A stretch of DNA of 22,335 nucleotides. It comes from a virus. The stretch lies in IMG/VR virus record IMGVR_UViG_3300019487_000101, positions 1-22,335 of that record, one strand, 5' to 3'. The notes under the pieces are model-generated. The model did no database searches, was not told the origin of the DNA, and saw nothing but the letters and a program-made list of their open reading frames with translations. Positions within the stretch are counted from its first letter, which is position 1. Each line of letters opens with the position of its first letter. Position numbers and translations under genes: made by a program. Shown in pieces: positions 3,369 to 21,302 of the stretch.

Positions 3369-3623
3369 ATGAGTGCTTATTATAACATAAAAGGGCAAAG
3401 TGTTCGTGTTTCAGATCACGAGCCCAACACCGCTCTAAGGGGTAGTTCTGATTTGTATATCTGGACTAAAGATGCGTGTGGAACGTCAATGGCCGTTGGG
3501 TCTCAAATCGACCGATTTTGTGATCGTTACGGTTTTGAACTAAAAGATTTCGAAGCTATTATCCGAGATTTTTCCTCTGTAGACGAGGAATGTAAGTATA
3601 TGCTTATCGAAATTTCAGAATGA
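3369..3623 (+). CDS. Conserved hypothetical 84-aa phage protein
   Basis: Starting at ATG 3369, just after an A-rich GAGAAAAA stretch, the protein reads MSAYYNIKGQSVRVSDHEPN and continues through SDLYIWTKDACG and VGSQIDRFCDRYG. The phrase 'YY.IKGQ.VRVSDHEPN..LRG.SDLY' is one I associate with small conserved phage proteins of unknown function. An upstream TTG at 3309 would add 20 residues, but it lies inside the AT-rich promoter-like stretch and the added sequence (MSYIYITINTETQPTKGREK) looks non-coding. The stop overlaps the next start (ATGA), so the two are translationally coupled. Confidence 0.7.
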   Translation: MSAYYNIKGQSVRVSDHEPNTALRGSSDLYIWTKDACGTSMAVGSQIDRFCDRYGFELKDFEAIIRDFSSVDEECKYMLIEISE

Positions 3624-3922
3624 AACTCACCCGCTTTTTGATCGCAGACAATCCAATGGCAGAGGGTGCGCCCTCTGCCATCATTCATACAGTTAATCCG
3701 CAAGCGATAATTGAAATTATAGAAGGGCATGTGAATGCTTCCAGTCCTTACCGTCACTTCACCAACAATGATGAACTTTATACCTTGCGTGTTCATCATT
3801 TATTCACTACCGAATTTGATGGTGAGCAATACAATATCATAGTTGATAAATTATTGAATCGCGCCTGGCACTGGTTTATGGCGTACATGCAATGGGAAGA
3901 TGAGCAAATCGAGGAAAATTAA
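3620..3922 (+). CDS. Hypothetical 100-aa protein
   Basis: It begins within the stop of the preceding gene (ATGA at 3620). The sequence opens MKLTRFLIADNPMAEGAPSA, followed by IIHTVNPQAIIEI. The middle has YRHFTNNDELYTLRVHHLFT, the C-terminal helix is Trp-rich (RAWHWFMAYMQWEDEQ) and the end is acidic. I do not recognise a catalytic motif. Its 3' end overlaps the next gene by 23 bp. The tight packing with an RHH-type protein suggests a regulatory or accessory operon, but no function can be given. Confidence 0.7.
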   Translation: MKLTRFLIADNPMAEGAPSAIIHTVNPQAIIEIIEGHVNASSPYRHFTNNDELYTLRVHHLFTTEFDGEQYNIIVDKLLNRAWHWFMAYMQWEDEQIEEN

Positions 3923-4061
3923 GCAAGGAGGAAAACGCGCAGGAGCCGGTCGTCCAAAAACAAAAGAGGACACTGTTGTAATTCGCATTCCAAAATCACT
4001 TATTGAAAAAGTAAAGCAGATTATATCACAAACAGCGCAAGAAGCAACAACTCCAAGATAG
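3900..4061 (+). CDS. Small putative ribbon-helix-helix protein (GAGRPK type)
   Basis: This 53-aa basic protein starts at ATG 3900 inside the end of the preceding gene. The N-terminal arm KQGGKRAGAGRPKTKEDT is followed by a beta-strand candidate (VVIRIP) and helices KSLIEKVKQIISQTAQ. 'GAGRPK....V.IRIP.SL.EKVK.II' is the typical look of short Arc/MetJ-like DNA-binding proteins on phages and mobile elements. Helix two is short, so the fold may be minimal or completed by dimerisation. The last 41 bp (4021-4061) overlap the end of the leftward spanin-like gene tail to tail, an antisense overlap at the boundary of the two transcription units. Confidence 0.65.
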   Translation: MSKSRKIKQGGKRAGAGRPKTKEDTVVIRIPKSLIEKVKQIISQTAQEATTPR

Positions 4062-4425
4062 CAAGCCATAAAGCGCCCTCCTTTCGACCTTTCCATTTTG
4101 CTTCCTTAACTTTTGTTTTGTTGGTTTCCTCATGATTGTTAAATCTTTCCTCCCATACAATAACCTCCTGAAATTTGCTATCTCGTTGCTGTGTTCGTAG
4201 TTCAATAAGTTTACCTGCCTGCAATAGTTCCGCCTGCTGTTTGTTGTAGGCAATGCTCAACGTAATAAAAGCTGAATCACATACGGGCAAGGAATTATAA
4301 GCCTCTATCAAACGCCATAACTTCCATTTAGGTACGGGATAAGTCGCTGTACTATCGGATTGTGAGTAGGATACTGTCCAACTCAGAATCACTAAAGCGA
4401 ATAATAACAGCCCTTTGTTTCTCAT
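4021..4425 (-). CDS. Putative spanin-type lysis protein: signal peptide plus C-terminal membrane anchor
   Basis: I choose ATG at 4425 because the following residues form a textbook signal peptide (MRNKGLLLFALVILSWTVSYSQ); the longer frame upstream only adds sequence overlapping the previous gene. After cleavage near residue 22 the chain has a long charged helical region (about 60-112: KQQAELLQAGKLIELRTQQ, then EERFNNHEETNK). It ends in a hydrophobic stretch at the very C-terminus (LWLAILELLLLALFVI, about 119-134). A periplasmic coiled-coil tethered at both ends is how spanins bridge inner and outer membranes. There is no lipobox Cys, so a standard o- or u-spanin is not proven. It overlaps the preceding gene by 74 bp and lies at the end of the lysis cassette. 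Confidence 0.6.
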   Translation of the reverse strand: MRNKGLLLFALVILSWTVSYSQSDSTATYPVPKWKLWRLIEAYNSLPVCDSAFITLSIAYNKQQAELLQAGKLIELRTQQRDSKFQEVIVWEERFNNHEETNKTKVKEAKWKGRKEGALWLAILELLLLALFVI

Positions 4426-4669
4426 AACGTTTACGCCAGATATTAGCCTCTGCTTCGGCTTTAAATTTATCGTGTATTGCTTTTTGATACAGCACGAAGG
4501 TAACCGAGTCCTCGTGTATAATTTCCATGTAATTGGTTCTAATGCTGTCAATACTGTATTTGTACTTAGCATCCTCTAAATCACGGTATTTTGATTGTTC
4601 AAGGTGGTATAGGTAGAAAAACGAAGCGCAAACAAGTAGAACGAGAATGGCGGGAAGGTATGTTTTCAT
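4352..4669 (-). CDS. Putative i-spanin-like (Rz-like) membrane coiled-coil protein
   Basis: This 105-aa protein has one N-terminal membrane segment (about residues 4-22, LPAILVLLVCASFFYLY) followed by a charged helical region (LEQSKYRDLEDAKYKY, IHDKFKAEAEANIWRKRYEK). That is the architecture of Rz-type inner-membrane spanins, which act after the endolysin to disrupt the outer membrane. It lies about 40 bp after the endolysin gene, the usual Rz position, and its 3' end overlaps the next membrane gene in another frame, as Rz/Rz1 pairs often do. Sequence identity to any Rz cannot be judged by eye, so this is an inference from topology and position. Confidence 0.55.
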   Translation of the reverse strand: MKTYLPAILVLLVCASFFYLYHLEQSKYRDLEDAKYKYSIDSIRTNYMEIIHEDSVTFVLYQKAIHDKFKAEAEANIWRKRYEKQRAVIIRFSDSELDSILLTIR

Positions 4670-4709
4670 AAATAAGATTATATCCCTATTATTATAACAA
4701 TATTTAGTT

Positions 4710-5204
4710 TCATATCTGTACGAATCCTAAAACCTTTAAACCGTTCCAAACATCTTTTATTACTTTGCGTTGCTTAATCGCTACCGTTACACCTTCACGT
4801 CCTCCGGTTGCATTTGTGTTGCCCTCCACTGAGGTGAATTCCCAAGTACTTTGAAGTTCTTTAACGATACCCGCATGGCCTTGCCATTGTGGTTTGCCTT
4901 CCTTATGTTGTTGCCATATAACTAAATTACCGTCTTTAGGCAGGTTGTTGATCGGGTAAGCGGCCTTAACAAAGTTCTTGTATGTCTGTACGGCTGACGC
5001 TGAAAACAACTTATCGAACTCTGCGAACTTTTCAGGGTAGGCTTCTTTAAAAACCATCTCACAAAACAATGCACACCACGGGTCACCGTCACGCTGGCCG
5101 ACTCCGTGCATCTTCTTGCCAAAGTAAGTAGCATCAGAAAAAACGTTTCCTGTTAATTCTGTTTGGCCTACGTATTTAAGGGCTACTTCTACGGCTTTGT
5201 TCAT
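4710..5204 (-). CDS. Endolysin, CHAP-like peptidoglycan hydrolase
   Basis: The 164-aa protein has the signature of a papain-like NlpC/P60-CHAP hydrolase. A catalytic Cys sits in DPWCALFCEMVF (Cys44), the catalytic His in WQGHAGIV (His110), and a polar third residue is likely in VEGNTN (Glu127 or Asn129). The N-terminal helix (VEVALKYVGQTEL) and the spacing of the three blocks fit the 'AL...G..E..G....WCA.F......GHVGIV..EGNT' phage amidase/endopeptidase type. It would cut peptide bonds or the amide link in peptidoglycan at lysis. There is no signal peptide, so it needs a holin. Its ATG overlaps the stop of a 30-codon ORF. Confidence 0.85.
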   Translation of the reverse strand: MNKAVEVALKYVGQTELTGNVFSDATYFGKKMHGVGQRDGDPWCALFCEMVFKEAYPEKFAEFDKLFSASAVQTYKNFVKAAYPINNLPKDGNLVIWQQHKEGKPQWQGHAGIVKELQSTWEFTSVEGNTNATGGREGVTVAIKQRKVIKDVWNGLKVLGFVQI

Positions 5205-5293
5205 AGGTCACCGTCAGCTAAATCTTCTAAAGCATTTCCTGCATCATCTACAGCCGATTCGATAAGTTCTCCTGCATTTCCGAATAATCCCAT
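5201..5293 (-). CDS. Small 30-aa ORF coupled to the endolysin
   Basis: ATG at 5293 opens MGLFGNAGELIESAVDDAGN and ends with an acidic stretch at a TGA that overlaps the endolysin start (ATGA). The peptide is acidic and amphipathic with no membrane segment. Its position in an otherwise unexplained 126-bp gap, and its coupling to the next gene, favour real translation, perhaps to set endolysin expression. Its shortness means it could be chance. Confidence 0.45.
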   Translation of the reverse strand: MGLFGNAGELIESAVDDAGNALEDLADGDL

Positions 5294-5330
5294 ATATCTA
5301 TTTTTTAGTTTTCCTTGGCTGTTGTTGTCT

Positions 5331-5555
5331 TTAAGCCTTCTTCCTTTCTAATTTGTCAAATCTGCGATCGTTGTCTTCATGCTTGTTTTCGTGTACTGCA
5401 AGCATGGTTTTCATATCGGATACCGTTTCGCTTAACTGCTTTAGAATCGCATCCGTCCGACCAATGTACGACTTTATTATCCAAATAAGAGCACATCCAA
5501 ATAAAAAACTTAGCGCATAATAAAATGAATCCGGAGGTATTACGATCTCGCCCAT
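5331..5555 (-). CDS. Membrane-anchored coiled-coil protein of the lysis module
   Basis: The 74-aa protein has a single hydrophobic helix at about residues 11-30 (FYYALSFLFGCALIWIIKSY). A charged heptad-like helix follows to the end (LKQLSETVSDMKTMLAVHEN, then DRRFDKLERKKA). Small proteins of this shape sit next to holins in many phages (XhlA-like or antiholin-like accessory proteins). Its ATG at 5555 overlaps the end of the two-helix holin candidate. It could be a holin partner, a second holin or a tail-associated membrane protein; topology and position favour a lysis accessory role. Confidence 0.6.
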   Translation of the reverse strand: MGEIVIPPDSFYYALSFLFGCALIWIIKSYIGRTDAILKQLSETVSDMKTMLAVHENKHEDNDRRFDKLERKKA

Positions 5556-5773
5556 TATTGAAATATGTCTACGATTCCGTCTTTGTTGTTATCAGTACAC
5601 CATATCGCAAGCACCGCCCCGACAAAAGAAAACCCGCCAGCAATCAACATCCAGTGATCTGATGCTCCTAATTCATGCAATCCAACAACACCAGGAGCCG
5701 CAAATACCGCAATAGTCTTTTTAACGTTCTCCCAGAATGTCACTTTTTTCCAAAACTTTGATGCTTCGCTCAT
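5555..5773 (-). CDS. Putative holin with two membrane segments
   Basis: The 72-aa protein has a basic amphipathic start, then two hydrophobic stretches at about residues 20-36 (TIAVFAAPGVVGLHEL) and 41-58 (WMLIAGGFSFVGAVLAIW), and a short polar tail. Size, topology and place before the endolysin fit a small holin that permeabilises the inner membrane to time lysis. The C-terminal tail DNNKDGIVD (61-69) resembles a calcium-binding dockerin/EF-type loop, unusual for a holin and possibly coincidental. It overlaps the 128-aa gene upstream by 4 bp and the next gene by 1 bp. Confidence 0.65.
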   Translation of the reverse strand: MSEASKFWKKVTFWENVKKTIAVFAAPGVVGLHELGASDHWMLIAGGFSFVGAVLAIWCTDNNKDGIVDIFQ

Positions 5774-6156
5774 GTCGGTTTGTGAATAAGTAAGTATTCA
5801 AATAACACAGCTTCTATTTCTGTGTCCTGTTCTTTTGTAAATTCTTTCAACTCGTTCTCTGGTATAAAATTCAATTCCAGTTCGATTAAATATGCCTTTT
5901 GTTTTTCCCGCAGGTTCTTGGTAAACTCTTTTATCTTTTCTTTGTCTTCAAGATAAAACGCAGCGCCCTGCTGTGATGCACCAAAGTCCTCTGCAACATC
6001 ATTTTCTAACTCACTCAAAACTGATAAACTATTTTTCAATGCTATCTTTGCATTAATAAGTTTAATGTAGTTAACGCCTGATACGTGTCTTGCCTTAAGT
6101 CCTTTTTGGCTTAAAGCTGTGTTTAGTTCTACCGCTTGTTGTCTGTTCAGTTTCAT
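5770..6156 (-). CDS. Hypothetical 128-aa helical protein
   Basis: Predicted to be almost entirely alpha-helical and charged (QAVELNTALSQKGLKA, NAKIALKNSLSVLSELEND, KEKIKEFTKNLREKQKAYLI). No membrane segment, signal peptide or catalytic motif is visible. Proteins of this type and size are frequent between the tail fibre and lysis genes of phages in this group, but I know of no tested role; a tail-assembly or lysis-timing partner is possible. The start follows an A-rich leader and the stop overlaps the holin candidate. Confidence 0.65.
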   Translation of the reverse strand: MKLNRQQAVELNTALSQKGLKARHVSGVNYIKLINAKIALKNSLSVLSELENDVAEDFGASQQGAAFYLEDKEKIKEFTKNLREKQKAYLIELELNFIPENELKEFTKEQDTEIEAVLFEYLLIHKPT

Positions 6157-6251
6157 ATTTTATTTTTTTATACTTTCGATCTTTTTGTTGGATTAGTTAT
6201 TTGGTTGACGCCTCGTCCTGTAAGCAGCCTCCAAAGGTAATCATATAGTTT
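6157..6251. promoter_or_regulatory. Intergenic gap with candidate leftward -7 element before the lysis cassette
   Basis: On the minus strand TACCTTTG (6239-6232) fits TAnnTTTG exactly, about 75 bp before the 128-aa gene. No TTG -33 box is found at the expected 19-21 base distance. This is the longest gap in the late region left of 16323, so a lysis-cassette promoter is plausible but not strong. Confidence 0.3.
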
Positions 6252-9848: not shown

Positions 9849-11446
9849 GCGTCAAAATCTTTAAGTTTCACGTCTAAAAAGTCAAACATAGGTTTCCCGC
9901 CCCACTGATTGTACAGTATAACATCGCAACCCTCATTGAAAGGGCTGTTGGCAAAGCGTTCATTGCGTTTCAGATAGCTGTACACCCTTTTTAATTGCCG
10001 TAACCCCATACTTTTGTTAGCCACAATGGCGGCTGCAACCTCACGCCCTGCCTTACCACCGCATTTCAAACCCATTTTATCAGCATATTCTAAGGCCTTG
10101 TTTATGGTTTTGACTACATTATCAGGGAACGTTACCTGTATTGCATTAGAAATCTGCGGTTCAGTTTTAGGCTCTGCCAAATCACCATCCAATAGGATTA
10201 TATCGGTGTTTTTGGTAATCCATTCTCTTTTTTCATCTGGTGTGAGTGCATCCCATATCTTGTCGTCTAGTATTTCCAATTCAGGGTATGGGTTGTACGG
10301 TGTTATTACGACCTCTTCTTTGTACGGGGTAACCATGAGAGGTAAAAACTTCTTATAGGCTTCTGTTAAGTACCTTTGTTTGCGTTTTACCCGCTGTTGC
10401 ATGAGTTTTACCGACACTCTGATAAGATTGCCATCCCCGCCAAGGCTTGCCCCTTCGTTTATGTTGGCCAGAATTGAAGGAACCTTCCATGCAAGGGTTA
10501 TTTTTTTGGTTGAATGGGTGTCAAGGTTATTAAATAAATCCCCGTTATTGTTGGCTGGCAATGTCAGGACCGTTGGTGCCTCCTCGTTGTTGTTCACCCA
10601 CTGCACCCACATATTTCCTATACGTTTTGCCCCCATGAAGTTATGTGAAACGATCTCATCAAACTCCTGTGAGGCTGTAGCCGGTTTACCATCCCCGTTG
10701 TAGTCTGCAAATTCTGGATTATTGCTTGGGTCAAATGGGTTACCTTTTACAATCAACATAAACGGCTGCAACATACCGTTAGCCATGTTATCCTCATGGT
10801 AATCGGCCACTGATGTTTCGGTTTTCATCCATTTTTTACCGCTAACCGCCTCATGCTTGGGGTAAAACCTGCTTAACGTGGTAGTCGTGCCAACAAAAAG
10901 TACCTGCCCCTTATATTTGGTCTTATCCCTCAATATCTGGTCTTTTACAGAATTTGGGTTAAAAACATCGTATATTATAGTTTGTTTTTTGTCGGTGCTG
11001 TTGTAGTCTACTGTACCAAAAAATGGGTTATAATAAATCTTTGATATAAACCCGTTATAATCGGGCTTGCCAAGACGACAATTTTCAAAAGGCAAAAACT
11101 CTACTTCTGTCACCGCCCCGCTAACGTTATACCGAATAAGCAATGCAAACCCCTCAAACTCCCCAAACGAATCAGCGCATTTAGCGTGTATTTGCCAGAA
11201 TGTTTCCCCCGATGGGTTTACTTTGATGTCTTCGAGTTCATTGCCGCTGAACCCATCACCTTCTATAAAGTCCTGTGTAGTTGATAGGCACGATTTCCCG
11301 GTCGGGCTTTCGGAAATTATCCGTGACCATTCAATAGGCCAGTCATCTTTAGCGCCAAATGGAAGGTAACCGTCTGAAGTTGTGGCATTTCTGGGAGCAG
11401 ATTGCCGTATTAGATTGAGGAAATTATAAATTTTCAGCCACGCCAT
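9836..11446 (-). CDS. Portal protein with extra C-terminal domain
   Basis: The 536-aa protein opens with a typical portal N-terminus: 'LPFGAKDDWPIEWSRIISES' followed by 'PTGKSCLSTTQDFIEGDGF'. Then come the wing and stem regions (FEGFALLIRYN, FLPFENCRLGKPDYNG, and later NINEGASLGGDGNLIRVSVK followed by KRKQRYLTEAYKKFL). The portal forms the dodecameric ring through which DNA enters and leaves the capsid. From about residue 460 there is a separate domain (GGKAGREVAAAIVANKSMGL, YLKRNERFANSPFNEG, QWGGKPM) resembling a module found at the C-terminus of other phage head proteins (helix pair, then '(L/Q)WGG..M'). The start at 11446 overlaps the upstream glycosyltransferase by 23 bp. Confidence 0.8.
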   Translation of the reverse strand: MAWLKIYNFLNLIRQSAPRNATTSDGYLPFGAKDDWPIEWSRIISESPTGKSCLSTTQDFIEGDGFSGNELEDIKVNPSGETFWQIHAKCADSFGEFEGFALLIRYNVSGAVTEVEFLPFENCRLGKPDYNGFISKIYYNPFFGTVDYNSTDKKQTIIYDVFNPNSVKDQILRDKTKYKGQVLFVGTTTTLSRFYPKHEAVSGKKWMKTETSVADYHEDNMANGMLQPFMLIVKGNPFDPSNNPEFADYNGDGKPATASQEFDEIVSHNFMGAKRIGNMWVQWVNNNEEAPTVLTLPANNNGDLFNNLDTHSTKKITLAWKVPSILANINEGASLGGDGNLIRVSVKLMQQRVKRKQRYLTEAYKKFLPLMVTPYKEEVVITPYNPYPELEILDDKIWDALTPDEKREWITKNTDIILLDGDLAEPKTEPQISNAIQVTFPDNVVKTINKALEYADKMGLKCGGKAGREVAAAIVANKSMGLRQLKRVYSYLKRNERFANSPFNEGCDVILYNQWGGKPMFDFLDVKLKDFDAWLN

Positions 11447-12200
11447 AGTCTGGGATATTGAAATAGTTCGGCACCGTGTGCAACACTTTGCCGTAAAAAT
11501 TACAATAATATCCTTCCTTAGCGCACATTAAATCCTGAGTTATGGTAGATCGCTCTAAATTGGCTTTCGCTGTGCTGTTCCTTATTTTTTTAGCGTAGTC
11601 TTTTCTAACCCATGAATAATGTTCCATGACAACTTCCTCTGTATACTCAACCCCGGAATCAATATTTATACTTCTGGTTGGGTCTATTCTTATCTGGCCG
11701 TTAATCCACGCAAAAGGATAATTTGTATTGAACTCATGCCTCACTCTTTCTGTCAGCTTATGGATGAACGGAACTAAAGTTATATCGCGTCCTATCGTTA
11801 ATGTGGGGCTTTTAAAATAACAGTTACATGGAATGACCAAGCCTTGCAGCTCCGGTTCCACGTGAAACCGTTCCTTTGCTGTTTTGAATTTCTCGTAATG
11901 ATAAAACTCGTCTGCGTCCATCATTATGAAATGGGTGTACCCTCGTTCTAATGCAATCCTAAGACCTTCGTTTCGTTTTGCTGTTTCCTTTTGCATCGTA
12001 GTAAGTCCACGAGGTTCATATTTTATAGCTTCCATGTCTACTCTCCAAAAATCCGGCATCTTTGAAAACTCCCCGTAATTACTTGCTTCTGAGCCTATAA
12101 CAATAACGTCATCGACAAGAGGATATATGTTTTTATAAGAACGCTCTAACATATCCCAATCATCCCACACGCAAAATATGGCCGCTAATCTCATTTCCAT
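11424..12200 (-). CDS. Glycosyltransferase, GT-A fold (DADEF motif)
   Basis: The 258-aa protein starts with an inverting-GT2-like strand (MRLAAIFCVWDDWDMLERSY), then DVIVIGSEAS, KETAKRNEGLRIALERGYTH and FIMMDADEFYH. The D-x-D (DAD, about residues 95-97) would hold a metal and the sugar nucleotide. It would transfer a sugar from an activated donor to an acceptor not identifiable here. ATGs at residues 1 and 3 are both possible. It overlaps the zinc-ribbon gene (10 bp) and portal gene (23 bp), so it is translated with virion proteins. Confidence 0.75.
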   Translation of the reverse strand: MEMRLAAIFCVWDDWDMLERSYKNIYPLVDDVIVIGSEASNYGEFSKMPDFWRVDMEAIKYEPRGLTTMQKETAKRNEGLRIALERGYTHFIMMDADEFYHYEKFKTAKERFHVEPELQGLVIPCNCYFKSPTLTIGRDITLVPFIHKLTERVRHEFNTNYPFAWINGQIRIDPTRSINIDSGVEYTEEVVMEHYSWVRKDYAKKIRNSTAKANLERSTITQDLMCAKEGYYCNFYGKVLHTVPNYFNIPDYGVAENL

Positions 12201-12406
12201 TTATTTCCTTCTGGATGTGGGCATTCGTTTTCTTCATCGCTTGCCTTTGCTATCAAAGGACACAAACAAACACCACAAACAAATCCCTTTCTTTTATCAC
12301 ACGTTTGACAAATCGATAATCTATCTTCCCTTAAATCCTTGTTTAAGCCTTTGAACAAATACCACCACGCACGAACTATTCTAAATATCATAGGTATCCC
12401 TGACAA
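12191..12406 (-). CDS. Small Cys-rich, putative zinc-ribbon protein
   Basis: The 71-aa protein has an amphipathic hydrophobic N-terminus (IPMIFRIVRAWWYLFKGL) followed by Cys pairs at 33/36 (CQTC), 44/47 (CGVC), and further Cys at 49 and 62 (ECPHPEGNKW). CxxC...CxxC with a final 'CP...W' looks like a zinc-ribbon. Similar small proteins (R...C..C......C..C.C.L..K.....CP...W) appear beside glycosyltransferases in other phages, in my memory. It may be an adaptor or cofactor of the glycosylation enzymes. Confidence 0.6.
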   Translation of the reverse strand: MSGIPMIFRIVRAWWYLFKGLNKDLREDRLSICQTCDKRKGFVCGVCLCPLIAKASDEENECPHPEGNKWK

Positions 12407-13020
12407 TGAAACACAGCTTCTCTATTCGGTTGTGAGTAACCTGGCCCGATGTAGCATAAATGACTCGCCCCTGTTTGGTACTTCATGCCCATACGTTGTG
12501 CAATTATTGAGGCGCACGTCATATCGTGTCTATGGTCTGCCCAATCACCTTTAAAACATCCTGCCTTTGCTGAGGCCGTCCACTCATCCAAAAATTTCAT
12601 AGCCCTTTCGTTGTTCCTGTTCAATCCAAGAAGCCCCGCACTGAACATCGTTAAACCACCTTCGCCCTGTACCGCTTCCTGTACAGTAAGGTTGAAGTAG
12701 TTTCGGGTGTGTTCGTTGCACCACCTGCCAACATAATGCCCAGCTTCCTCGAAAAAATGCCCGTCTTCTTTGATTATGTTTTCAATCTTTGACAGATCAC
12801 CTACACGGTACATTGATGCGTCAGCCCATAATACAATAGGATCAATATTAATAACTATTTTTAGGGCATGGCATTTAAACTCGTAGGGGCTTTCCTGATG
12901 TGTCGGGCTTCCTATTTGAGAATAATTATCATACATCAAATGATGGTAGTTAGACAAACTATTCCTAAGCCTGTTTTGGCCTGACTTAAAATTTCTTGTT
13001 GCGAAGTTTACTACTATCAT
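12388..13020 (-). CDS. Glycosyltransferase-like protein
   Basis: The 210-aa protein begins MIVVNFATRNFKSGQNRLRN and carries 'SLSNYHHLMYDNYSQIGSPT', which looks like the acceptor-side start of a nucleotide-sugar transferase. It also has 'IVLWADASMY' (residues 62-71), a probable metal/donor-site motif in which a D-A-S replaces D-x-D. Later residues (HDMTCASIIAQRMGMKYQTG) fit a GT-A C-terminal half. Similar proteins occur in phage sugar clusters. No direct proof of activity. Overlaps the methyltransferase gene by 4 bp and the zinc-ribbon gene by 19 bp. Confidence 0.6.
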   Translation of the reverse strand: MIVVNFATRNFKSGQNRLRNSLSNYHHLMYDNYSQIGSPTHQESPYEFKCHALKIVINIDPIVLWADASMYRVGDLSKIENIIKEDGHFFEEAGHYVGRWCNEHTRNYFNLTVQEAVQGEGGLTMFSAGLLGLNRNNERAMKFLDEWTASAKAGCFKGDWADHRHDMTCASIIAQRMGMKYQTGASHLCYIGPGYSQPNREAVFHCQGYL

Positions 13021-13619
13021 TTTACGTAAATTAAATTTTCCCCCGATGTATAGATGAGTTTAAATTCAGATAAGTATTTTTCATACTCTTTTTTGAGTTG
13101 CTCCTTCCCGTTATGCTCAATACAAATAAGTTTCGTATGTGTTAAATCCATGTCGGGTAAAATGTCAAGTTCGCTACCCTCGCAGTCCATTGTAATCATG
13201 TCAAACTTTTTAATAGTCAGCCTATTTAAAAACGTTCTCCATGTGTACATCTGAATTTCTACAGGGGTGTATTTTGTTATACTTTTAAACCTTGCCATCT
13301 CGGAGGCGTGTAATGTGCTTACAAGTGCAACATCTGAAGGTGAGCATAACGAAGCAGACTCCTGTAGGAAACATTTGTTATTGCCGTTGCCGATAGCGAC
13401 CTGATAAAAATAGAATCCTTTCAGGCCGTCATAGTTAGCTTTCAGTCGTTCAAATGCTTTAGGGGATGGTTCTACGAACACCCCACCCCATCCAAGTTCT
13501 GCCAGCGCCCTGACGTTAGATAATGTCTTGCCGTCATTAGCTCCAATGTCTAAAAAATTCCCCCTCTTACCATCGAAGTATTTTAAAATTACTTCCTCCT
13601 CTTTATTTTGACTGTACAT
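13017..13619 (-). CDS. FkbM-type SAM-dependent methyltransferase
   Basis: The 200-aa protein has a clear Rossmann SAM motif I (NFLDIGANDGKT, about residues 21-32), motif II (GVFVEPSPKAFERLKANY) and a motif IV-like MDCEGSELDILPDMDL. This order ('DIGAN.G..S......G..V..EP.P...E.L......', then 'MDCEG.E...L') is the FkbM family, which O-methylates sugars or small molecules. In this gene neighbourhood a terminal-sugar methyl group is the simplest inference, for example capping of a glycan added by the neighbouring transferases. Overlaps its neighbours by 17 and 4 bp. Confidence 0.8.
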   Translation of the reverse strand: MYSQNKEEEVILKYFDGKRGNFLDIGANDGKTLSNVRALAELGWGGVFVEPSPKAFERLKANYDGLKGFYFYQVAIGNGNNKCFLQESASLCSPSDVALVSTLHASEMARFKSITKYTPVEIQMYTWRTFLNRLTIKKFDMITMDCEGSELDILPDMDLTHTKLICIEHNGKEQLKKEYEKYLSEFKLIYTSGENLIYVK

Positions 13620-14229
13620 TCAATGCTTTGTTAATTTTGTCTGCTTCACTGTGTTTGCTTGAATAATTGTACTGATGTATTATGGATTCAGTTTTGGCTT
13701 CTGTTACGCAATGGGTTAATACCTTTTCCATCCATGACCAATCCTCTGCATAACTTGTGTCTATGAAGTCGTATAGCTTGGCGTATTCTGTTTTAACCGG
13801 ACAAATGTGCCAGGGCTTCCTGCGAACGATATATTTGTCGTTAGCCTGATCGTTTTCGAACTCCAAGCCCATTTCAACAATCATCCAGAAGTTACCCATC
13901 TTGGAAATGTTTCGGAACGTAACCACATCGGCATCAAATTGGCAAAGCCTTACCAACGTTTCAATATATGCTGGTGAGATACTTTCGTCATCATCCAGAA
14001 AACAAAGATACTTACCTTCTGCTCTTTTAACCAGCGCTTCCCGTTTCTTGCCAATACTTAAACCCCCATCTAAAAATTTTGGTGAATCGTCTACTAATAC
14101 CTCAATCCTTCCGAGTGTTGGATGAAAGGTGTCCATGTATTGTAATTGCCTTTGTACCTCGTTGAATAGTTTGGTGAACATATCAAACCTTTCTGTTATA
14201 GTTGGGATTAAAATTGAAAGTATTATCAT
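13603..14229 (-). CDS. Family 2-type glycosyltransferase
   Basis: The 208-aa protein has the GT2 N-terminal strand SILIPTITERFDMF, then EVLVDDSPK, SIGKKREALVKRAEGKYLCF and LDDDESISPAYIE (D-x-D/E at about 79-82). Later YAEDWSWMEKVL matches the catalytic-base region (E-D-W in place of the usual E-D). This is a complete, compact GT-A domain with no membrane segment. The acceptor is unknown. It starts after the only 49-bp gap in the cluster, where a -7-like element is found. Confidence 0.8.
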   Translation of the reverse strand: MIILSILIPTITERFDMFTKLFNEVQRQLQYMDTFHPTLGRIEVLVDDSPKFLDGGLSIGKKREALVKRAEGKYLCFLDDDESISPAYIETLVRLCQFDADVVTFRNISKMGNFWMIVEMGLEFENDQANDKYIVRRKPWHICPVKTEYAKLYDFIDTSYAEDWSWMEKVLTHCVTEAKTESIIHQYNYSSKHSEADKINKALNVQSK

Positions 14230-14254
14230 TTAAAAAAGTAAGCTATGTTATAAA

Positions 14255-14262
14255 CAAATTTA
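14255..14262 (-). promoter_or_regulatory. Candidate internal -7 element (TAAATTTG)
   Basis: On the minus strand TAAATTTG fits TAnnTTTG and lies about 26 bp upstream of the glycosyltransferase start at 14229, in the only gap of the glycosyltransferase cluster. No convincing TTG -33 box is present upstream, so it may be a weak or chance match. Confidence 0.3.
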
Positions 14263-14278
14263 TAATCAGGACTGTACC

Positions 14279-14860
14279 CTATAATACTTTAGCGGTTCCA
14301 TGTCTATACGGTGCTTTCGTTGTGATAAAATCGTAATGATACATATTAACCGGAATGTGGACTTCTGATTTTAGTAGACCCATGTCGTTGACCTTCTTTG
14401 CCCATATGTAGTCTTCCTGTTCCCATACGTCACTAAATTTAATGTGGCTTACCAATGATTTTTTGAAGCAACAAAGATGATTCGGAAACCTGTAATATTT
14501 TCCTAATCTGTATTCGTAACGCTCGCCAAGTTTAATAACAAAATCAGTCATGCTACCTCCGTTAGTGGTCATGTAGCCAATGAACGTTATAACGTCAGGA
14601 TTTTGATTAATGGATTTCATTAACTCATCAACGTAATAAGCTGGCACAATATCGTCAACGTCCACAAAGCAATAATACTGACCTTTGCAGTCTTGTATCA
14701 TTTGGTTACGCTTTGTGCCTGTGGGCATATCTCTGCCTGTGTCGTTTATGAGTATCTCAACTTCAGGATACCGTGATACCTGTGGTTGTAGTATGTTTGT
14801 AATCCGTTTTAGGAAATTGGCGCTTTCGGGTATCGTTGTGATTAGAATTGATAGTTTCAT
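14279..14860 (-). CDS. Family 2-type glycosyltransferase
   Basis: The 193-aa protein begins MKLSILITTIPESANFL and has 'EVEILINDTGRDMPTGTKRN', then YYCFVDVDDIVPAYYVDEL (D-x-D-D at residues 67-70). It ends with the acceptor half: NHLCCFKKSLVSHIKF and WEQEDYIWAKKV, where the E-D is a likely catalytic base. This is a typical GT-A single-domain enzyme, clearly related in layout to the 208-aa transferase downstream, and the pair may be an ancient duplication. Its start overlaps the previous gene by 4 bp. Confidence 0.8.
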   Translation of the reverse strand: MKLSILITTIPESANFLKRITNILQPQVSRYPEVEILINDTGRDMPTGTKRNQMIQDCKGQYYCFVDVDDIVPAYYVDELMKSINQNPDVITFIGYMTTNGGSMTDFVIKLGERYEYRLGKYYRFPNHLCCFKKSLVSHIKFSDVWEQEDYIWAKKVNDMGLLKSEVHIPVNMYHYDFITTKAPYRHGTAKVL

Positions 14861-15501
14861 AATCCTAACGGGAATCCTTGTGACTTATGCTTGGCAAACA
14901 TCGCTTTACCCTGTTCCCAGTTTGCGGAACTTCTTTGATACGTTTCATCGTCCTTTGCTTTGCCAACTGATACGTGCTGGTGTTCAAACTTTATACGGGG
15001 GCACATTTTCATAGCACCTAATCTGTGAGCCATCCAATAAAGATGCTCATCACAAAACATACTTTTATAAGCAGGATGCCAGAAGTAACCGAGTTTTTCA
15101 TAAAGTTGGCGGTTCATTATTGGGATTGTTAGTACCGCAACATGAAAATTCTGTAAGCAGTCGTCAACCTTTAATAATAAGGGTCTGTCCTCCCCCTCAA
15201 ATTCTTTCAACACTGACAGACCCCAATTATCAAAGCATTTAAAATCATCAGACAAGTAAATAAGAACGTCACCCCTTGAAACTTTTGCAGCTATGTTAGT
15301 AGCTTCAACTACACATGAATTATCATTCTGTAGGTGTATTGCATCTGAATACGCAATCATGTAATCCAAAACAAACGGGTCTGAAGTGTCTGTACTTACA
15401 ATTAATTCAACATCACATCCTGCCTTCTCAATCCATTCCTTTGCATTCTCGTAGGACTTCTGTGGTCGGCCTCTAGATGGATGAATTAAACTTATAACCA
15501 T
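14857..15501 (-). CDS. Glycosyltransferase, GT-A fold
   Basis: The 214-aa protein begins MVISLIHPSRGRPQKSYENA, a form seen in many phage and bacterial GT2 proteins ('(S)L(I/V)HPSRGRP'). After VELIVSTDTSD come NDNSCVVEATNIAA, and YLSDDFKCFDNW, where the S-D-D (84-86) serves as the D-x-D. 'YKSMFCDEHLYWMA' (about 145-158) may hold the base. Acceptor unknown. Overlaps its neighbours by 10 and 4 bp. Confidence 0.75.
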   Translation of the reverse strand: MVISLIHPSRGRPQKSYENAKEWIEKAGCDVELIVSTDTSDPFVLDYMIAYSDAIHLQNDNSCVVEATNIAAKVSRGDVLIYLSDDFKCFDNWGLSVLKEFEGEDRPLLLKVDDCLQNFHVAVLTIPIMNRQLYEKLGYFWHPAYKSMFCDEHLYWMAHRLGAMKMCPRIKFEHQHVSVGKAKDDETYQRSSANWEQGKAMFAKHKSQGFPLGL

Positions 15502-16151
15502 GTTACATTTATGTTTTTGTTATGAACGTATATTGAAAAAAGTCTTTCAAGCAGAAAAGGAACAAGCGGATAGTACGGCACGCCCAATTTTTCCATCAAA
15601 TATTCCGGGCTTGCAGCGTCTTTCTTTGCTAACGCTGAATAATTGCTGTCTACCATGCACAATTTATTCACATTCTTGTCGTTGTCGATCAATTTCATGG
15701 CCGGACTAAGGTACTCGGTTAAATAATCCTTGTAAATCTCTGTCTTTGCGCTGAAATGGTTCTGATAAATTGGGTTTTTGACCTCATTGGGCATATTTTT
15801 GCCTATACCTTCGACAATTTCTGTCAATGCAGCCTTAAATCCTTTGTGCCAAACCTCTGCGGAGCCCATCATTTTATGTTGTCTGCTGTTGCGTGTGAAT
15901 GACAGTACATCGTAATCGCTTTCGAGTACTTCCTGCGTCAGTGGTCGTGGCCTGCCAACATACCACCGCATCTTTTGGCGTAACTTCCATGAACAAACAG
16001 AAACTTTATCGTCTGTGCATTCAGAAGCTACCGCCTCGATAATAGCGTTTTCAAAAAACTTATTTAATGTGGTACTTCTGATCGGTATTGCACAGTCGTA
16101 CAATTCTTTGCGGTGTTCTTTTTTGTAGTAAATCTGGTATAGTTCAGCCAT
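15492..16151 (-). CDS. Glycosyltransferase-associated phage protein (unknown activity)
   Basis: This 219-aa protein has conserved-looking blocks SVCSWKLRQKM (51-61), YDVLSFTRNSRQH (80-92), KNPIYQNHFSA (125-135) and PLVPFLLERLFSIYVHNKNI (195-214). I recall the last two as hallmarks of a family found in phages of this host group and often annotated as glycosyltransferase-like. The classic D-x-D is not obvious (VDSNY at 167-171 is the best candidate), so I do not claim catalysis. Its start lies 8 bp inside the 59-aa gene. Confidence 0.6.
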   Translation of the reverse strand: MAELYQIYYKKEHRKELYDCAIPIRSTTLNKFFENAIIEAVASECTDDKVSVCSWKLRQKMRWYVGRPRPLTQEVLESDYDVLSFTRNSRQHKMMGSAEVWHKGFKAALTEIVEGIGKNMPNEVKNPIYQNHFSAKTEIYKDYLTEYLSPAMKLIDNDKNVNKLCMVDSNYSALAKKDAASPEYLMEKLGVPYYPLVPFLLERLFSIYVHNKNINVTWL

Positions 16152-19440: not shown

Positions 19441-21302
19441 GTCTTTGCCATAGTTTCCCTCATCCTCACTCTGTTCTGCGCTCTCGATACCTCAACAACC
19501 GATACCACCGGAGGGGGTAACCGCTTTAATACGTTAGCCATTATAAGGTTCTGCTGGGCCGGTATGGTGTTTGTATTGGTCACAAATCCACCGTCTGCAT
19601 AACCACGTGTTCTCATTCTTTCAAGTACCCGTAAATGTGGCTGCGCTGCTGCTGAATTAACAACTGATTGTGGGGCCACCCATTCGCCTCTGTGTACAAT
19701 CCCTGCCGGTTCGTATTTTCCGCCATGACCTGTGTAACCACCTTCAGCAAACCCTAACGCACTCTTGGCCTGTGCAATACCCGCCAACACTGCCGTAACG
19801 CCACTAAGTATAGCCGCAAGGTTAGCGGGGAATGGTAGACCCGCACCCGCTTGTACTGCCTTTGAAATACCAACCCCTGAATTTATGGCAATTTCAACCA
19901 ACGCTAATACCTTGGCGGCTGCCGTTCCTTCCTCTGCAATGGCCGACAATGCCCCGGCAATCTGACCGTATTGTAGTGCTATACTTTGGGCTGCCTCGGC
20001 TTCGCCCTCCCTTATTATGGTTCTTTCGTCTGCTTGTTGCTGTAGGTCTTTGGTACTCAGTGCCTGTGATTCAGCCAACATATTATCGGCATTGTCAAGT
20101 CCGGCCTGTACCGTTGCGTTCAAATCATCATTAGAAACTAAAGACTCTGATGGGGCTCCGAATGTAGTCGTATCGTCTGCCCCTGGTGTGAGTCGTTGAT
20201 TTCTTACCGCTTCCTGTTCTTTTAAAATCTTTAACCGTTCCTGTTTAGCTTTCGATAACGCATTTATTCTGTCCTGTTCAATCTTTAATAGCGATTCCTG
20301 TGCTTTAATGTTCTCTGTCTGCTTGCCTTTAATTTCCTCCTGAATATCGGATACTTCAGCTAACACCTTACGGATTTGAATCCTCAAATCAAGGTCTTTT
20401 ATTAACTCAAAATTTACTTTACCTTCTTGTATTAATTGTTGTTTACCCCCTTTAGTGATAGAGCCAACTGCCTCACCATAGGTATATAATAGCCTGATTT
20501 GTTTTGTTAAAATATATGTTCTTGCTTTCTCATTTTCGTTTAACTGCTTCTCAACTTCATCTACTGCATCTAATCTCTGCTTCTGAGTCTTGCTGGCATC
20601 ATCTCTGATACGTCTTTGATTTTCTGCTTCTCGTTCTGTATCCTTTATTTTTTGGGCAGCTATTATTGCCTCCTCTTTAAGACCACGAAGTTTAAAAAGT
20701 TGTACTCTTGCTATCTCTAATTCTAAATTTCTTTGATTAGCAATTTCTTTTGTATTGGATGTAAATGCAATGGCTATCTTAGACACACCCTTTGACAGGG
20801 TTTCAAAAAATCCTGCATCACTTGCGTCTCCTACCCTGTTTATAAATTGGTCGAGCAGTGCGTTAATTGAGCCTTGTGCCTTGGCGAAATCCTCAGCTCC
20901 AGCCGCAGACTTTAGATAAGCAGCGCCAAGCGCACCAACAATACCAACCGCTGCCGTCAATGGATTTGCAAACGAACTTAACTTAGTACCGAGCTGTCCA
21001 ACATTGGTGCCCATGATTTTCAGGTTACCGGCTGCCTGCTCGATTGACTTGGAATAGTTACCTACGTTTTGTCGTTGCTTTGTGAGCGCATCTGAATTGT
21101 CCTTTATCTTCTTGTTGTTATCATCAATGGCTTTGTTAAGTTTCTGAACTGCTTCCTGTCCTTTTACAGTAGAGATATTAACACTGTCGCGCTCTTTTCG
21201 TAGCTGTGTGTTGGCCTGCTTTAATGTTGATATACTTTGTACTGCATCTCTTTCATCAACCTGAAAATCCAGTATTACAGTTTCTTGTATCTGCCCCGCC
21301 AT
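19437..21302 (-). CDS. Tail tape measure protein
   Basis: The 621-aa protein begins [20 protein letters not shown] followed by [14 protein letters not shown] and a long heptad region to about residue 95, the usual opening of Bacteroidota phage tape measures. A hydrophobic segment lies at about 113-131 ([18 protein letters not shown]). Long coiled coils (about 185-370) follow, then a second hydrophobic stretch (465-515). The tail end has [11 protein letters not shown] (518-528), [16 protein letters not shown] (533-548), YADGGFV (569-575) and [18 protein letters not shown] (599-616), all common tape measure signatures. It sets tail length; at about 1.5 Å per residue this would be a tail near 90 nm (rule-of-thumb inference). 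It begins 1 bp after the distal-tail gene ends. Confidence 0.9.

Follow-up and report, generated by a model that had tools for sequence, protein, structure and literature searches.

An overlapping gene pair lacking a lipobox in the lysis cassette of a virus related to Bacteroidota phages: a candidate two-component system for outer-membrane disruption

Overlapped two-component spanins of the Rz/Rz1 type lie after the endolysin gene and pair an N-terminally anchored protein that has a helical periplasmic part with an outer-membrane lipoprotein, whose gene begins inside the first gene in another reading frame and carries an export signal (PMC6139136). The genes of such pairs can be embedded, overlapped or adjacent, and published overlaps include 70 bp in T5, 116 bp in DFL12phi1 and 155 bp in Jersey (PMC6139136). 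Unimolecular spanins (u-spanins), typified by T1 gp11, carry an N-terminal lipobox and a C-terminal segment in one chain. U-spanins have been reported in flavophages (PMC8776804), and a survey from 2025 states that Bacteroidetes phages use u-spanins only, having discarded by its filter any o-spanin candidates without a lipobox (PMC12596118). A survey from 2018 includes the Croceibacter phages P2559S and P2559Y and the Bacteroides phage B124-14 in its list of spanin-less phages, presents outer-membrane breakage by phages without a recognisable spanin as an open question and already raises the possibility of a type I inner-membrane protein in a spanin pair (PMC6139136). Among the matches listed from the consulted portions of four sources (PMC6139136, PMC8776804, PMC10367356, PMC12596118), we found no description of a lipid-free two-component spanin. 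Such a pair would partly fill the spanin-less gap and correct the annotation of the genomes concerned.

We analyzed a stretch of 22,335 bases (hereafter, the window), a partial virus record with a long late operon on the minus strand. Its portal gene matched phrog_11226 in a PHROG profile search (E 4.9e-47), and the 11 phage records matching the portal include five from Cellulophaga, four from Bacteroides and one from Tenacibaculum. Related portal loci in genomes bear Bacteroidota names in 16 of 17 cases, and one (L011) is labelled just "bacterium". Both members of the overlapping pair that a sequence-only reading had proposed at 4021-4669 were found there as open reading frames on the minus strand, at the 3' end of the operon (Table 1, in operon order). 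The endolysin also matched the Pfam CHAP family (E 6.4e-5), falling short of the curated cut-off of that family. The product of 5331-5555 gave a weak XhlA match (Pfam, E 0.13), and for the product of 5555-5773 the PHROG and Pfam scans returned no informative match and tblastn none at all.

Table 1. Features at the 3' end of the late operon (positions in the window).
Feature	Position	Strand	Description
Small hydrophobic protein	5555..5773	-	72 aa; candidate holin from its position alone
Small membrane protein	5331..5555	-	74 aa; possible lysis accessory; FLFGC motif, acidic N-terminus without K/R
Endolysin	4710..5204	-	CHAP-like, 164 aa; phrog_21357 endolysin, E 4.4e-9
P2	4352..4669	-	105 aa; N-terminal anchor (residues 4-20, approximate) followed by a long helix; Rz-like architecture
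P2/P1 overlap	4352..4425	-	74 nt, out of frame; P1 offset by 244 nt (frame +1), its start lying at 0.77 of P2
P1	4021..4425	-	134 aa; no lipobox; Q-rule signal peptide SYS|Q22, then a long helix, a basic cluster and a hydrophobic C-terminal segment (118-134)

We identified membrane segments from hydropathy and motifs by pattern matching, and modeled structures with AF2 from single sequences. The description of P2 as Rz-like was borne out by a single hydrophobic segment near the N-terminus followed by predicted helix (residues 5-89 and 94-104; pLDDT 65, low confidence). The P1 model, of the same low confidence (pLDDT 65), has helices at 4-20, 33-44 and 49-133, so that each protein is predicted to be chiefly one long helix. 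The N-terminal hydrophobic segment of P1 (residues 5-21) runs into a signal-like end with glutamine at the predicted +1 position, in agreement with the signal peptide claimed earlier and consistent with the Bacteroidetes Q rule, by which exposure of glutamine by signal peptidase I is distinctive of this group (PMC10367356). The only cysteine of P1, C49, lies far from the lipobox position, which upholds the reported absence of a lipobox. From the signal and the position of this cysteine, P1 is therefore predicted to be exported via its signal peptide and not lipidated. The hydrophobic segment that had been read as a C-terminal membrane anchor is present and extends to the last residue of the chain, but a basic cluster lies upstream of it and no K/R follows, which makes it uncertain that the segment is an inner-membrane anchor of the usual N-out/C-in kind. 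An ORF with a lipobox at the end of P1, 3851-4096(-), might have been the missing o-spanin, but we rejected it on its codon usage (-0.225) and its antisense position to 3900-4061(+). A Cys-Asp-[ST] motif that follows the signal was dropped too, being missing from the other second proteins described below.

Several measures indicate that P1 and P2 are genes. In 2000 dinucleotide shuffles of 3600-6200 we recovered no overlapping pair of this kind and no ORF of at least 100 aa with a signal-like start and a C-terminal hydrophobic segment; ORFs of at least 130 aa of any sort on the same strand appeared in 23. Codon usage scored +0.092 bits/codon for P1 (+0.12 outside the overlap) and +0.057 for P2 (+0.10 outside the overlap), against a training set of 19 window genes (range 0.024-0.334, scored without leave-one-out). 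The test is modest, as two of 23 spurious ORFs reached 0.065 and 0.071, values between those of P2 and P1. In the P1 frame, the extension ahead of position 4425 scored -0.056, which favors the start there.

Searches for relatives returned no credible match to P1. Neither protein had relatives in IMG/VR (a search sensitive to close relatives only), and tblastn against INPHARED gave a single unrelated match for each (E 5). P1 had no match at E<=0.01 in 395 Bacteroidota genomes (a search without a positive control, whose empty answer shows little) and none at E<=10 in three portal-related viral records; six prophage-bearing genomes gave one row at E 0.096 and another, interrupted by stops, at E 0.17. 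In the PHROG and Pfam scans no spanin profile matched either protein: P1 had no PHROG row at all, P2 matched three PHROGs of unknown function (E 0.023-0.25), and the Pfam rows were at chance level (DUF1315, E 0.069; SusD_RagB, E 0.043).

The layout, as distinct from the sequence, recurs. A strict scan of both strands of 1,039,622 bases, mostly Bacteroidota phage and prophage DNA with some stretches counted twice, returned three rows that represent two loci, the window and Croceibacter phage P2559S. When phages were added (1,218,930 bases) and the scan was relaxed, 17 rows were obtained, five with a lipobox pattern and 12 without, and five of these 12 were kept as four independent pairs: the window, P2559S together with its relative L122, Cellulophaga phage phi39:1 and the Bacteroidota genome locus L060. 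The seven other lipobox-free rows were set aside by eye; at L007, L015, L018, L059, L072 and L110 one or both members began with GTG or TTG, and the row at L024 consisted of two short ORFs. A further 373,238 bases (L157-L199) gave four rows, all judged spurious by eye. Examination of loci by lysin family gave one pair, L060, among all 19 GH108 matches, and none that was kept among 17 of 24 M15_3 matches or 40 of 43 DUF5675 matches. All four second proteins lack a lipobox, lie in frame +1 and have glutamine at the predicted +1 position (SYS|Q, ALS|Q, VQG|Q and ASS|Q), and in every pair the second gene starts at 0.72-0.81 of the first. The architecture is thus common to pairs with undetectable sequence similarity, and its repetition in P2559S, phi39:1 and one Bacteroidota genome means that the window pair is no one-off misreading. 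A C-terminal hydrophobic segment is present in just two of the four second proteins (P1 and L060) and absent from those of P2559S and phi39:1; a common mechanism is therefore not given.

Two of these pairs belong to phages available in culture, phi39:1 on Cellulophaga baltica and P2559S on Croceibacter atlanticus, and both follow a lysin gene directly, overlap out of frame and carry a Q-rule signal without a lipobox, as P2/P1 does; they differ from it in the ends of the second proteins. The P2559S pair (gp29 and an extended gp30) follows the annotated endolysin with an overlap of 98 nt. The annotation of gp30 (L073 27577-28065) starts at an internal GTG at 27826; when it is read from the ATG at 27577, the signal peptide is restored and a helical part is added. 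P2559S and L122 share 720 of 766 bases, and in the unshared part of the second gene dN/dS is 0.085 in its own frame (20.5 silent and 6.5 replacing changes) as opposed to 0.996 and 2.64 in the other two frames; the unshared part of the first gene gave 0.090. By this comparison the extended gp30 is under purifying selection. Its protein end reads by eye as beta strands with a terminal aromatic residue. A plausible lipoprotein of 115 aa (29131-29478) lies about 1.1 kb after the pair and could be a conventional partner, which would count against a lipid-free reading. The phi39:1 pair (gp31/gp32, overlap 83 nt) directly follows gp30, a DUF5675 protein (E 3.3e-24); gp32 has no terminal segment and is predicted to be soluble once its signal is cleaved. 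The L060 pair, 3597-4272 (-), is oriented divergently to a neighboring GH108 gene, lies in no clear prophage and is perhaps a domesticated lysis module. In Tenacibaculum phage Larrie (L007 2000-2807), two annotated genes overlap and the second has a Q-rule-like signal; no known lysin adjoins them.

To place the pairs among Bacteroidota phages, we sampled 16 named phages, several of them in part; the stretches of phi18:1, phi19:1 and Larrie may miss lysis genes. A lipobox protein with a C-terminal segment was found in seven (11b, 6H, RAP44, BS-TP3, FCL-2, phi10:1 and phi19:1): it adjoins the lysin in the first four, lies about 0.75 kb after it in FCL-2 and is away from any known lysin in phi10:1 and phi19:1. 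The lipobox-free pair was found in two (P2559S and phi39:1), both types together in none, and neither type by scan in seven (B124-14, P2559Y, P12002L, P12024S, phi18:1, phi46:1 and Larrie). Some phages of this last group have a lone N-anchored protein beside the lysin (B124-14 ORF016, P2559Y gp23 and phi46:1 gp10). The B124-14 protein belongs to DUF6549 (PF20186, E 8.6e-29) and resembles P2 in its N-terminal anchor, helical part and position adjoining the lysis peptidase; it differs from P2/P1 in that we found no overlapping partner in B124-14, and a Pfam search at E up to 1 gave no DUF6549 row for P1 or P2. By eye, P2559Y gp23 (L074 22998-23621) and phi46:1 gp10 (L199 7257-7769) have an N-terminal segment and a beta-strand-like end, as do two prophage proteins (L063 5940-6563 and L054 3676-4392), all near lysis genes. 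These four are candidate one-chain proteins whose beta tail would reach the outer membrane. After the endolysin of the portal relative L003/L009, a single chain comprises an N-terminal segment, a helix, a basic cluster and a hydrophobic end, and in sequence it reads like P2 and P1 fused into one; single-chain forms of L056, L069 and L009 gave E 0.31, 0.91 and 2.4, respectively, against phrog_739 (Rz-like spanin). A tRNA-like sequence with a CCA anticodon was seen by eye between the L003 endolysin and this membrane protein (20646-20720).

Compared with two-component spanins, the locus agrees in the first protein, which in P2 is N-anchored and helical (low-confidence model), and in the arrangement of overlapped genes directly after the endolysin, of which the second opens within the first, out of frame, and encodes an export signal; the 74-nt overlap is within the published size range (70, 116 and 155 bp; PMC6139136). 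P1 differs from the second protein of the Rz/Rz1 type in having no lipobox, in its greater length (134 aa), in being helical and in its hydrophobic end. As the lipoprotein is missing, we did not file the pair as a two-component spanin. With the unimolecular spanins of Bacteroidota phages (11b gp49, 6H gp36, RAP44 gp03 and BS-TP3 gp16), P1 shares an exported part, a hydrophobic stretch at the C-terminus and the gene neighborhood; it differs in lacking the N-terminal lipobox, in the basic cluster before its last segment and in having a partner gene. Of 15 lipobox proteins, 14 have at least two K/R behind the last segment (the sole exception is L104), as opposed to none of nine lipobox-free proteins near lysins (Fisher P 7.6e-6), in sets that were made by hand and not corrected for kinship (L163, L166 and L168 come from a single genome, and L009 is related to L069). 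The first sets gave 12 of 12 and none of six, and L104, L166, L168, L021, L110 and P12002L gp34 were added afterwards. Given this contrast in charge, P1, with its basic cluster before the terminal segment and a chain that ends inside it, is not simply a u-spanin minus the lipobox.

We weighed what the pair might do. On balance we favor the reading that P2/P1 is probably an outer-membrane-disruption module, a two-component pair that would act as spanins do but include no outer-membrane lipoprotein. In its favor are the position after the endolysin with an overlap of published size, the absence of such pairs from the shuffles, the three further independent pairs, the purifying selection on the P2559S second gene, the DUF5675 gene before the phi39:1 pair and the finding that none of the 16 phages has both types. 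P2 would hold the inner membrane by its N-terminus and extend its helix into the periplasm, like Rz. P1 would be exported by signal peptidase I under the Q rule and hence be non-lipidated, its helix could pair with that of P2, and its basic cluster and hydrophobic end could hold a membrane. After peptidoglycan removal by the endolysin, the two proteins together would disrupt the outer membrane, as gene position and the action of spanins suggest. The link of P1 to the outer membrane might be its own C-terminal tail or a host outer-membrane protein. Against this module, P1, having neither lipid nor beta domain, is not tied to the outer membrane, and a lipobox spanin may lie beyond the window, as the record is partial. 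The lipoprotein gene near the P2559S pair, the setting of L060, the lack of spanin profile matches to P1 and P2, and the seven sampled phages with neither type also count against it. The earlier proposal of a possible new spanin architecture in Bacteroidota is supported in part, by the missing lipobox, the Rz-like partner, the position right behind the endolysin and the recurring layout (P2559S, phi39:1 and one Bacteroidota genome); a type I inner-membrane protein in a spanin pair had been raised before (PMC6139136). A bolder version, which we hold to be doubtful, is that Bacteroidota phages have inverted spanins, in which the N-terminal anchor (P2 or the L009-type chain) marks the inner membrane and a protein-only C-terminal tail the outer membrane; the tail, either basic and hydrophobic (P1 and L060) or beta-rich with a terminal aromatic (P2559S), would replace the lipid. 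If so, helix pairing and the tail anchor would drive fusion. SNAREs, which fuse membranes by helix pairing and a tail anchor, are somewhat similar.

Other functions would also account for parts of the evidence. P1 and P2 might set the timing of lysis by partnering the holin or endolysin in the periplasm or inner membrane, much as the antiholin RI of T4 does, and not break the outer membrane. The position in the lysis cassette fits such a role, as do the predicted solubility of processed phi39:1 gp32 and the chance that both P1 and P2 are held by the inner membrane only. We judge it unlikely, however, because two-component spanins are described with just this layout, an N-anchored helical protein whose gene follows the endolysin and is overlapped out of frame by that of an exported partner (PMC6139136), and because both pair-bearing phages that are complete enough have no lipobox protein with a C-terminal segment. 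It is likewise improbable, in our estimate, that an ordinary lipoprotein spanin is encoded elsewhere, beyond the 22 kb record or in another small gene, and that P1/P2 has another envelope role such as a block to superinfection. The partial state of the record, the FLFGC motif in the upstream gene 5331-5555, the plausible lipoprotein 1.1 kb from the P2559S pair and the lipobox proteins with a C-terminal segment in the portal relatives L004 and BS-TP3 all speak for it. Against it, no such protein occurs within the 22,335 bases of the window or in 28,000 of the 28,760 bases of phi39:1, the lipobox ORF at the end of P1 has non-coding codon usage, and the FLFGC motif has no positive residue ahead of it and a hydrophobic stretch behind. 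That P1 is no true gene, or has another start, with the absent lipobox an artifact, is hardly credible: its frame extends without a stop to an ATG at 4572 and the start is unconfirmed by any homologue, but a clean signal peptide begins at 4425, the upstream extension scores below zero in codon usage as opposed to P1 itself, no shuffle gave a comparable ORF and the counterpart of P1 in P2559S shows purifying selection.

Additional features were noted in the window and in one of its relatives. A near-perfect inverted repeat of 26 bases (3656-3681; 92% self-reverse-complement) lies inside the ORF 3620-3922(+), and an ORF of 236 aa (1104-1814) has a repetitive second half rich in alanine, serine and arginine. 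Between the capsid and portal genes is a run of ORFs (11424-16151), several of them glycosyltransferase- or methyltransferase-like by eye. A similar run is present in L004, where it also includes a lipobox protein carrying a C-terminal segment.
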